From Pseudomonas lalkuanensis (GTDB lineage Bacteria; Pseudomonadota; Gammaproteobacteria; Pseudomonadales; Pseudomonadaceae), in the NCBI RefSeq assembly GCF_008807375.1, contig NZ_CP043311.1:5992954-6056953 (forward strand): a stretch of DNA of 64,000 nucleotides. Reading direction: 5' to 3'. A program made the translations under genes and the position numbers. Under the pieces are notes generated by a model. That model was not told the DNA's origin, did not search any database, and worked only from the letters and a program-made list of their open reading frames with translations. This document shows, piece by piece, positions 14,359-59,542 of the stretch (its first letter is position 1; each line of letters begins with the position of its first letter).

Positions 14359-14582
14359 GCCCTCGCTTTTCCACCCTGTTCCCCAAAATCAGTGGAAGGG
14401 CCTGTGGGTAAGGTGTAGACCGAGTTCCAGACCCCGCGCCACGCGGGCCTCCCCATGATTTGGCGATTTTCTGAACGATTTCAACGACTTGGCCTGTGCA
14501 CTGCTCACAGTTGCTGTGCAACAGGCTGTTGATAACCTGTTCGGATTCTGCTCTGGGCCCCGCCATTACTGGCCTCCCGACG

Positions 14583-14599
14583 ATTGATCAACTTCTGAT
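14583..14599. repeat. TGATCA pair, first copy
   Basis: TGATCA-ACTTC-TGATCA, two 6-bp palindromes 11 bp apart. The same layout recurs at 15254 and 15574, each near the end of a type A unit of the array. Eleven bp is one helical turn, suggesting a dimeric protein bound on one face, or paired GATC methylation sites. Confidence 0.6.
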
Positions 14600-15253
14600 C
14601 AATCTTTCGCAGCCGCGAAACACCTGGCCCGGCACCGGGCCGCCTCCCGGCTGTAATTCCCATTGCAGAGCCGTTTCCCCCATTTTCCGTGGATGCCACT
14701 GTGGATAAATTGTCGATGGATGCCTGGGAAGCAGGCACGACGCAGCTTTCCACCATCCGGCTATTTTTCGAGCAAAATCATAGGGATAACTGCTTCGTTG
14801 CACACAATATCTGTGCAGCCATCTGTGAATAACTTGTGAGGACAATGCTGAAATCCCCGCGACCCGTGACCTGCAGGGCATTGATCAGTTTTCACACAAG
14901 TCTGATTGGATACCCTCCTGCTGTGAATAACAGATTGACGCCGTCGCCGGATGGAGGACGTTCCCTCGGCAATGGACGGCTCATCCGTGGGTATCAAGCG
15001 CTGTTTCGACCCCGATTCGCGTGCTCGTCAGCGATCTGTTCACAGGTTGGCGGAGTTTTTACCCAGATCCCGTGGATGCTGTTGTGGATAAGCTGTAGTT
15101 CGAATGCCAGGCGCCAGAGCAGCCGCGGCTTTTCGCGTCTTGTTCATTTTTCGTTCTGATTCAAATACTTGGCCCACAAATTCTGTGTAGCCATCTGTGG
15201 ATAAGCTGTTTGGACATGGTTGTGGCCCAGCAAGGATGCGGCCTGTGACGTTG

Positions 15254-15270
15254 TGATCACTATTTGATCA
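15254..15270. repeat. TGATCA pair, second copy
   Basis: TGATCA-CTATT-TGATCA with the same 11-bp period as the first copy. The spacer differs, so the conserved element is the pair of palindromes and not a long repeat. Confidence 0.6.
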
Positions 15271-15573
15271 GCCTTGCCGGCGGAATCGGGCAGCGTTCCG
15301 CCAGGCCAGGCCCGGTCGATCTCCGCGCCATCAATCCACAAGCGCCATCACCAGCAACTCCACGCTTGTGCCCAAATTGCGTGGACTGGTCTGTGCATAA
15401 GTTGTCCATGGATGGCTGCAGGCCAGGCAGTGCAAGGCCTGCTGAAGAACGTACATTTTTCGAGCAATATCAACGAGTTAACCAGCCGGATGCACACAGG
15501 ATCTGTGCACCCCGCTGTGGATAGCCTGTGAGGACAGCGCTGCAGCCTACGAATGGCGGGCCTTGCGCGCGAC

Positions 15574-15590
15574 TGATCAATAAGTGATCA
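15574..15590. repeat. TGATCA pair, third copy
   Basis: TGATCA-ATAAG-TGATCA, ending the last type A unit just before the convergent end of the cytochrome-lectin gene. In the second type A unit only one intact TGATCA (14882-14887) remains. Confidence 0.6.
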
Positions 15591-15607
15591 GGCGCCCCAC
15601 GGCCGAC

Positions 15608-21453: not shown

Positions 21454-23210
21454 TTGATTTCCCGCCAACTGCGCATCGCCCTGCTGATCCTGCTGCTGCT
21501 CGCCGGCCTGTTCCTGGCGATGCACCTGGCTGGCCGCCAGGCCGAACGACAGGCACTGCGCGACGAAGGTGAACAGGCCCGCGAGCAACTGACCCTGTAT
21601 GCCGGCAGCCTGCGCACGCTGATCGACCGTTTCCGCGCCCTGCCCGCCGTTCTGGCGCTGGACCCGGAGTTGCGCGGCACCTTGGGCGGACCTGTGGATA
21701 ACGCCGCACAACACATGCTCAACCTCAAGCTGGAGCAGATGAACCGCGCCGCAGGCTCCACCACCCTGGAACTGCTGGACCGCGAGGGCCTGGCCGTGGC
21801 CGCCAGCAACTGGCGCCTGCCCACCAGCTTCGTCGGCCACAACTACGGCTTTCGCCCCTACTTCGTCGAGGCTCGACGCCTGGGCAGCGGCCGCTTCTAC
21901 GCAGTGGGCGTGACCAGCGGGATTCCCGGCTACTTCCTCGCCAGCGCCGTGCGCGGCGCGGAGGACACCTTCATCGGCGCCATCGTGGTGAAGCTGGAAT
22001 TTCCCGAACTGGAGCAGGAATGGGGACAGCGTTCGGACATCATCCTGGTCAGCGACGCCCGTGGCGTGGTGTTCATCGCCAACCAGCCCGGATGGCGCTA
22101 CCGCGAGCTGCAACCCATCTCCGCCGAGGGCCGCGCCGAGATGGCGGCGACCCGGCAGTATGACAAACAGCCACTGGCACCACTTATCCACAGCACCCGG
22201 ATCAATTTCGGCGATGACAGCCGGCTGGTCCGGGTCGAAGGACCTGATGGCCCCCGAGACTACCTCTGGGAAAGCCTGCCGCTGCCCAGCGAAGGCTGGA
22301 CCCTGCACCTGCTGCGCACCCCGCAGGAGGCCGCCAGCAGCGCCCGCGCCGCCAGCCTTGCTGCCGGGGGCGCGTGGCTGGCGGTGTTCTTCCTGGTGCT
22401 GTTCCTGCACCAGCGCTGGCGCCTGGCACGCATCCGCCAGCGCAGCCGGGAGGAGCTGGAGCAATTGGTGGAACAACGCACAGCCGCCCTGCGCACCGCC
22501 CAGGACGGACTGATCCAGGCCGCCAAGCTGGCCGCACTCGGACAGATGTCCACAGCCCTGGCCCACGAAATCAACCAGCCGCTCACCGCCCTGCAGATGC
22601 ACCTGGCGAGCCTGCGCCTGATGCTCGACAACGGCCAGTTGGAGCAGGCCCGCAAAGCCCTGGGGCGCCATGACGAACTCCTGCAGCGCATGGCTTCCCT
22701 CACTGGCCATCTGAAGACCTACGCGCGCAAGACGCCCGGCGGCCTGCGCGAGTGCCTGGAGCTGGGCAGCGTTGTGGATAAATCCCTGCAACTGCTGGCA
22801 CCCAACCTGCGCGACGCGAAGGTGCGGATCAGCCAGGAGCTGGCGGTGCCGGCCTGGGTTTCGGGCGACGCCATTCGCCTGGAGCAGGTGCTGGTCAACT
22901 TGCTGCGCAACGCCCTGGACGCGGTGGCCGGCGAGGCCGATCCACAATTGTGGATAACCCTGCGACGGGACGGCGACCACTGGGTGCTGGAAGTGGCCGA
23001 CAACGGCGGCGGCATCGCGGAAGACGACCTGCAACGGGTCTTCGACCCCTTCTTCACCACCAAGCCGGCGGGTGCTGGCCTTGGAATCGGACTGGCGGTG
23101 TCCTACGCCATCGTCCATGAACTGGGCGGCACCCTGAGCGCCGCCAACCAGGGCGAGGGCGCGCTGTTCAGCCTGCGCCTGCCTGTGGATAAGACCAGAG
23201 AGGAACTGCC

Positions 23211-23214
<4 letters not shown>
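21454..23214 (+). CDS. mifS: Sensor histidine kinase, DctB/MifS type
   Basis: A 586-residue membrane kinase. A first membrane segment (about 6-25) is followed by a periplasmic double-PAS/Cache-like sensor up to about 285, a second segment (AAGGAWLAVFFLVLFL), a coiled linker, the HisKA box MSTALAHEINQPLTALQMHL, and an HATPase with NLLRNALDA, DNGGGIAEDDL and GAGLGIGLAVSYAIV. It phosphorylates the overlapping response regulator. The TTG at 21454 fits the membrane segment best; an in-frame ATG at 21349 would add an improbable leader. By synteny and the adjacent permease it is probably the alpha-ketoglutarate sensor MifS. Five exact DnaA boxes lie within it. Confidence 0.85.
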
Positions 23215-24551
<1,337 letters not shown>

Positions 24552-57133: not shown

Positions 57134-59025
<1,892 letters not shown>

Positions 59026-59542
59026 CGCGCACCTCGTGCCTGTTCAAGGCTGGGAAATAGAGAAAGCCGCACAGTATAGGGGAATTCCCCTCTCTGCTTG
59101 AAGCCGTCTGGCCAAAAAATAGCCAACCCATCCGATCAGTGCATTTTCATGAAAGTTATCCAGCTGGGGAAAAGTGGTTGTGGGTAAAAGAAAACAAGAG
59201 AGAAGAATTTCTTAAAAAGCCTGTTTTTATTTTTATACCTTAGGAGAAGGCCTTTCTGTGGATAAGTTGTCTGAGACCAAGCAAGCCAATGGTTTCAACG
59301 AATGATAACCCTGTTACGTTCCTGCCTGTAGCCGTTGTGTATGCGGTCAGAAACCTGTGTACTCGGAAGGCAGTTATTCACAGGCCATTTATCCATCGGC
59401 TTTTCACCAGGCTTATGGACTGGGTTACAGGCAACTTATCAACAGGGTTCAGGAACGGAATTTTTCAGGCGCACAGGCACGAACGGACCGCCCGGCAAGC
59501 AGGCAGTCGCGTTCGCTGTGGATAAGCAGGAGGGGCTTCGGC
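59026..59542. other. Origin-like non-coding region between mnmG and mnmE
   Basis: A 517-bp stretch with exact DnaA boxes at 59257-59265 and 59517-59525, and single-mismatch boxes at 59179 and 59374. It has an AT-rich block near 59186-59240. AGAAGAATTTCTTAAAAAGC (59201-59220) closely resembles a block in oriC (63591-63613). The CTGTGGATAAGTTGT at 59256 equals the core of the 14.4-15.6 kb array. It includes the mnmG promoter region. A second autonomous origin-like sequence has been described in pseudomonads; whether it is this one I cannot say. Confidence 0.6.

Follow-up and report, generated by a model that had tools for sequence, protein, structure and literature searches.

In Escherichia coli, DARS1 lies between bioD and uvrB and DARS2 between rppH and mutH, and we know of no requirement for IHF or Fis at DARS1. 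Replication timing is, to our knowledge, less worked out in Pseudomonas than in E. coli. The accessible text of two papers describes a common core of three DnaA boxes in DARS1 and DARS2 (PMC4245941, PMC10380432); the first adds that relatives of E. coli among the gamma-proteobacteria conserve the DARS2 core (PMC4245941), and the second, a review, that sequences similar to DARS1 and DARS2 are conserved in many proteobacterial species (PMC10380432). Single DARS-like cores may already be known in Pseudomonas; the open-access literature, as far as its accessible text goes, gave no description in this genus of sites such as those analysed here.

A modular array of DnaA-box cores near the origin

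The DNA analysed (the window) is a stretch of 64,000 nucleotides that ends the 6,056,953-base chromosome record of Pseudomonas lalkuanensis. Since dnaA (486 aa, identified by sequence) starts at base 1 of that record, the array described here, which spans window positions 14377-15590, lies about 48 kb before it, as an earlier sequence-only reading had placed it. The array occupies a gene-poor stretch between a thioesterase gene (4HBT, + strand, end 14358) and an MVL-domain gene (- strand, 3' end 15608), which are convergent according to the ORF list and Pfam. A rough gene pick accepted no gene in 14359-15607, in agreement with the earlier view that no credible gene lies there; that pick overlooked the thioesterase as well, however, and the stretch does contain small ORFs, the longest one entirely within it being 107 aa. 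The GC content is 0.554 in the array region and 0.640 in the window. We rejected a coding region because the pick places no gene there, and an array of promoters because the flanking genes converge and no promoter excess was detected in the array, which has no terminator excess either. A vestigial origin, which had also been suggested, found no support, as no AT-rich unwinding region or AT-rich tandem element was seen by eye beside the boxes.

The array contains nine DnaA-box cores, all in the same orientation, as the sequence-only reading had claimed; eight of the nine starts that it listed are correct, the second core beginning at 14526 and not at 14523. TTATCCACA is exact in three of the cores (box starts 14700, 15083 and 15196), again as claimed, and the remaining six, described before as one or two bases off, all differ by one base. 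Allowing up to three mismatches, CTGTGGATAANNTGT has 38 matches in the window against 5.9 expected, the largest count in 100 shuffles being 13. Eight of the nine cores make up four modules, in each of which core A is followed by an IHF-like site, then core B and then a Fis-like site (Table 1). The two alternating longer units noted previously are core A and core B, which lie 124 bp apart (113 bp in module 3). In fuller form, and counted from the strong box of core A, a Fis-like site lies at +59, the IHF-like site at +76 and core B at +124, and a Fis-like palindrome, TGATCA-N5-TGATCA, begins at +58 from the strong box of core B. For comparison across genomes we used an alignment of 51 module copies from 14 genomes, chosen for strong boxes exactly 124 bp apart, so that modules with 113, 123 or 134 bp, including module 3 here, were left out. 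The ninth core (14922) stands 98 bp past core B of module 2, and the equivalent place is filled in 21 of the 51 aligned modules.

Table 1. Window coordinates of the cores and of the IHF-like and Fis-like sites in the array.
Feature	Position	Strand	Details
Module 1 core A	14377..14411	+	box I 14377-14385, box II 14391-14399, box III 14403-14411 (TGTGGGTAA)
Module 1 Fis-like (14462-14476) and IHF-like (14479-14491) sites	14462..14491	+	+59 and +76 from box III, by alignment offsets
Module 1 core B	14501..14535	+	box I 14501-14509, box II 14515-14523, box III 14527-14535
Module 1 Fis-like palindrome TGATCA-N5-TGATCA	14585..14601	.	from sequence
Module 2 core A	14674..14708	+	box III 14700-14708, exact
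Module 2 Fis-like (14759-14773) and IHF-like (14776-14788) sites	14759..14788	+	by offsets; IHF match weak
Module 2 core B	14798..14832	+	box III 14824-14832 (TGTGAATAA)
Module 2 Fis-like site	14882..14898	.	one TGATCA half exact
Lone ninth box C	14922..14930	+	98 bp past module 2 core B; DARS-type core absent around the box
Module 3 core A	15057..15091	+	box I TTTTACCCA; box III 15083-15091, exact
Module 3 Fis-like (15142-15156) and IHF-like (15159-15171) sites	15142..15171	+	placed by eye, with offsets as in the other modules; outside the 51-copy set
Module 3 core B	15170..15204	+	box III 15196-15204, exact; A-B 113 bp
Module 3 Fis-like palindrome	15254..15270	.	from sequence
Module 4 core A	15366..15400	+	box III 15392-15400 (TGTGCATAA)
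Module 4 Fis-like (15451-15465) and IHF-like (15468-15480; TATCAACGAGTTA) sites	15451..15480	+	by offsets and sequence
Module 4 core B	15490..15524	+	box III 15516-15524 (TGTGGATAG); over the mismatch limit of the triple scan
Module 4 Fis-like palindrome	15574..15590	.	end of the array; from sequence

Core geometry and accessory sites compared with DARS1, DARS2 and datA

Each half-unit consists of a weak box I (+), 5 bp, a weak box II (-), 3 bp and a strong box III (-): box III has the TGTGGATAA orientation, box II is co-oriented 12 bp ahead of it, and box I faces both, 14 bp ahead of box II. The weak boxes are TTGCACACA-like and TGTGCAGCC-like in the B units and TTTTACCCA-like and cGTGGATGcc-like in the A units; they depart from the consensus, most of all in the A units (CCCA instead of CACA). 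Box III fits TTWTNCACA. Among the 51 aligned copies, which were picked by box likeness, its TGT is invariant in both A and B (51/51), the most variable base of box III of A is the N position (12/51), and in box III of B the last base varies too (13/51).

We scanned the 64-kb window for triples of I(+)/II(-)/III(-) with at most six mismatches in total over 121 spacing pairs. The 14/12 spacing came out on top with seven triples, all of them inside the array, followed by 16/12 with five, the mean being 0.69; the seven triples are paralogues and thus represent one observation repeated, not independent ones, and the eighth core, that of module 4 B, falls beyond the mismatch limit. In the genome as a whole, the pattern CACANNNNNTGTGNANNNNNNTGTGNATAA with up to two mismatches gave 21 matches, compared with one for the reversed control. 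With the gaps left free (0-12 and 2-18), 16 of 39 family genomes yielded 43 matches in total, and the reversed control yielded none. In 33 of the 43 the gaps, counted by eye, were 5 and 8, that is the 14/12 geometry, part of these being orthologous loci and hence not an independent set; two of the other ten are repeat readings of sites already counted.

Scanning E. coli K-12 gave TTATCCACT-5-TGTGGATAA-3-TGTGTATTA for DARS1 and TTATTCACC-5-TGTGGATAG-3-TGTGAAGAA for DARS2, where the labels I, II and III are our own assignment. DARS1 thus has a core identical in orientation and spacing to those of the array, and DARS2, which is likewise non-coding, carries I(+)/II(-)/III(-) at 14 and 12 bp. The array therefore shares with both a box I that faces II and III over a fixed distance, with boxes I and II of the array being weak matches. 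The order of affinities is not shared, since the strong box is II in E. coli and III in the array. DARS1 moreover has a single core, whereas the array, unlike DARS2, has two cores per module in four tandem modules and lies 48 kb from the origin. When core sequences were compared, a profile built from Pseudomonas only gave 11.4 bits for DARS2 (E 0.0037 over 16 kb) and, in a broken alignment, 7.8 bits for DARS1; ordinary boxes at DARS2, oriC and datA reached 11.2, 10.9 and 8.9 bits, so that the DARS cores did no better. A strong box at II, as in E. coli, was found at three other loci of this genome (4612, 5734 and 875 kb), which may be closer counterparts of DARS than the array is. They are listed as L150 5876-5920, which adjoins rmuC, L153 6870-6914 and G000:C1:874671-874695, G000 being this genome.

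The IHF and Fis consensus forms were taken as printed in the accessible text of PMC10380432, with 200 shuffles as control. An IHF-like site with at least 8 of 9 informative bases was present in the A spacer of 31 of the 51 copies (shuffles: mean 1.9, largest 6), with a best mean offset of +76 from box III of A, and after core B in 1 of 51 (shuffles: mean 0.9), so that no such site is recognised there. Conversely, a full Fis-like site (6/6) follows core B in 28 of 51 copies (shuffles: mean 2.9, largest 8) and core A in 12 of 51 (mean 3.1, largest 9), the latter being a modest excess only. The genome encodes Fis and IHF-alpha, both above curated cut-offs. In E. coli DARS2 the same scan placed IHF-like sites at +67 and +83 from box III and its sole full Fis-like match at +119; the place of IHF therefore agrees with that in the array (+76), whereas the place of Fis does not (+59). 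IHF-like and Fis-like sites downstream of the core, the arrangement of the DARS2 subtype, thus occur in the array at fixed offsets beyond the shuffled level, as consensus matches and with a Fis offset unlike that found in E. coli DARS2. Fis is needed at DARS2 in E. coli, according to the accessible text of two papers (PMC4245941, PMC10380432), and a Fis-like site is present here.

This arrangement also bears on a reading in terms of datA, in which IHF would loop two co-oriented strong boxes and stimulate hydrolysis of DnaA-bound ATP, leaving less active DnaA after initiation. Each module does run strong box, IHF-like site, strong box in one orientation, and our scan of datA, read on the opposite strand, gives box-IHF-box in the same orientation, so that the topology is alike. 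The distance between the boxes, however, is 124 bp here and 162 bp between the two datA boxes as assigned here, which we take to be boxes 2 and 3 in the datA numbering; in addition, the datA region lacks a good 14/12 core, yielding only one poor triple with six mismatches. The accessible text of PMC10380432 reports datA near oriC, which fits the position of the array, states that spacing matters for datA function, and names no Fis site for datA. On balance, we consider a datA-like role unlikely, if still a serious contender.

Conservation, recurrence and the DnaA-box landscape

A related array directly follows the thioesterase gene in 14 of 18 genus genomes; in the other four (G003, G007, G008 and G017) the thioesterase is present, but no box with up to one mismatch occurs in the following 1.5 kb. 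In G003, which has no array by the thioesterase (C22:93511-93981), three nearly whole modules lie on the opposite strand about 9 kb further on (G003:C22:102821-103779). The 51-copy alignment has a mean identity of 66%; 36 of its columns are invariant and a further 29 nearly so, and columns 1-224 are free of gaps. As the boxes and the A-B distance were the rule of selection, only conservation beyond them is free evidence, and the selection itself partly accounts for the absence of indels between A and B.

Conservation of this kind, in which a TGT at +11 never varies and stretches beyond the named sites are also kept, exceeds what a single DnaA box explains. It could mean that the array binds some other protein, such as a transcription factor or nucleoid organiser, whose site shares the letters of the box by chance. 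Since the letters of the DnaA box are among those conserved, exact boxes cluster around the origin and the flanking genes are convergent, we regard such a protein as very unlikely. A family of structured RNAs, another of the options offered earlier, looked attractive at first, as the palindromic stretches fold and RNAalifold gave -23.6 for the ungapped 3' half against -7.7 (sd 2.8) in column-shuffled controls. On that 3'-half structure, however, pairs with changes on both sides numbered 8 compared with 8.2 in shuffles; none of the seven pairs predicted for the whole alignment changed on both sides, and eight single half-unit folds had z values from -0.04 to -2.28. With covariation not above shuffles, no match of the array to Rfam at gathering scores and no excess of promoters or terminators, we rejected the RNA reading as highly improbable.

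The three aligned modules of this genome are 55-62% identical to each other and 88-91% identical to the module at the same place in the nearest other genome. For all 51 copies the nearest neighbour in another genome shares the positional class (first, inner or last), which argues against a mobile repeat, a candidate we rejected on this ground. In G001 and G014 the inner modules are closer to each other (0.84-0.88) than to modules elsewhere, suggesting recent local tandem duplication in these two genomes. Overall, the modules resemble old copies that have been retained separately, rather than the product of recent mobile spread.

Modules or half-units also recur outside the array. With R1, a sequence-only profile built from the modules, we found at least 24 matches in this genome at E<=1 among the 150 of 1992 candidates that were scored: four in the array and at least 20 in nine other regions (445-453, 806, 875, 4588, 4612, 5293, 5302, 5448 and 5734 kb), with none between 0.88 and 4.58 Mb among those same 150. 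Among these matches, those outside the array that take in nearly a whole module are confined to the 445-453 kb region, and the other matches each span roughly one half-unit. The sequence-only reading had named a scattered, dispersed repeat as the finding that would speak against it; the recurrence fits that picture, whereas the retention of positional classes is unlike a mobile repeat. As to direction, those of the 24 R1 matches that lie on the right arm of this genome read towards the origin in 10 of 10 cases and those on the left arm in 9 of 14. At E<=1e-4, R1 matches all 18 genus genomes and, under stricter filters, 184 of 198 family genomes in 18 of 19 genera, where matches can be partial.

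We further examined the best 80 of 584 confirmed loci in other Pseudomonas, for which box lists show an array in the 3 kb past the thioesterase only in L047 and L048; these are most likely the same genomes as G012 and G014 and hence no additional ones. Three loci (L054, L094 and L096) end too early to judge, and the module profile agreed with the box lists on 18 of the 80. Many other Pseudomonas among these best 80 have a few boxes about 1.2-2 kb downstream of the thioesterase, which in L075 (12022-12264) lie within an ORF that is CobW-like by eye.

The genome contains 131 exact boxes (reversed control 9), which crowd the origin side, with 39 within 200 kb, 128 within 1.8 Mb and 3 beyond. The window, 1.06% of the genome, holds 29 of them, 18 between 13.7 and 28.2 kb. 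At 21693-24341 of the window, seven boxes (six exact, one with one mismatch) lie in histidine kinase and sigma-54 response regulator genes (Pfam), which we take to be mifS and mifR. The spacing of these seven is unchanged across 14 genomes, where by eye 9 of the 98 copies differ from the reference box. Third-codon-position conservation at these boxes is 0.956 compared with 0.806 elsewhere in the 14 genomes, a value reached in none of 5000 random draws, in a test biased by the fact that the boxes were picked for recurrence and the alignment was placed by them. A second cluster, of six boxes with up to one mismatch, lies at 58914-59525, presumably near an mnmG-mnmE-like boundary; it has no R1 match, and R2 gives only 12.8 bits there.

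Such a landscape raises the prospect that the array is a plain sink, a set of strong boxes that would titrate DnaA around the origin with no nucleotide chemistry. Both the crowding of exact boxes and the recurring kinase and regulator boxes, with the bias just stated, are consistent with it. An origin-near excess of DnaA boxes in E. coli and Salmonella, read as titration in E. coli, is likewise described in the accessible text of PMC12371093, which concerns a density of boxes, whereas here an ordered array of modules stands within such a density. Titration, however, requires neither a fixed A-B spacing, nor weak flanking boxes at 14/12, nor IHF-like and Fis-like sites at fixed offsets, and as a full account of the array we find it unlikely, although it and a datA-like role are the chief rivals of the reading given below.

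Candidate function of the array

Judged by its sequence, the array has the make-up of a DnaA-IHF-Fis regulatory locus. Of the options that the sequence-only reading had offered, a DARS-like locus is the best backed, by core orientation and spacing and by the IHF-like and Fis-like sites at fixed offsets, and we favour it for this core geometry and these sites. Our reading, which we judge to stand at about even chances, is that the array would be a cis-acting locus at which four DARS-like modules in tandem bind DnaA, and that it would act like DARS2. Against it stand the strong box at III instead of II, a core profile that scores about as ordinary boxes do, the datA-like topology, the weak IHF match in module 2, the Fis offset unlike that of DARS2, and the 4 of 18 genus genomes with no array at this place.

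What was computed is the lettering of the boxes with their orientation and spacing, the offsets of the IHF-like and Fis-like sites, the conservation and the absence of RNA covariation; from these we infer binding of DnaA, IHF and Fis as follows. The strong box III of each half-unit would anchor DnaA, and the weak boxes II (head-to-tail) and I (facing) would hold more DnaA in the geometry of DARS1 and DARS2. IHF would bend the spacer that separates the two cores, and Fis would bind past core B, so that the cores may be joined in one complex. Most likely in the manner of DARS2, ADP-DnaA would assemble on the array, release its ADP and leave able to take up ATP. At 48 kb from the origin the array would be doubled soon after initiation and, given this presumed timing, would be expected to titrate DnaA as well.

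More tentatively, as a possibility short of probable, these data may reflect a many-site form of DnaA control in Pseudomonas. Its unit would be two DARS-type cores round an IHF site and would in principle be capable of reactivating as well as inactivating DnaA; it would occur in tandem near the origin, with related modules or half-units in some nine further regions, and would be ancient across the Pseudomonadaceae, with the array in the window as an origin-near amplification at the edge of a box-rich stretch.

If the sites do work as DARS, this group may rely on far more of them to time the copying of its DNA than E. coli, where two are known. Being family-wide and having the core geometry of DARS, the element would provide named, deletable sites at which reactivation, inactivation and titration could be separated, and the tandem form near the origin would make the role of copy number and of distance from the origin directly testable.
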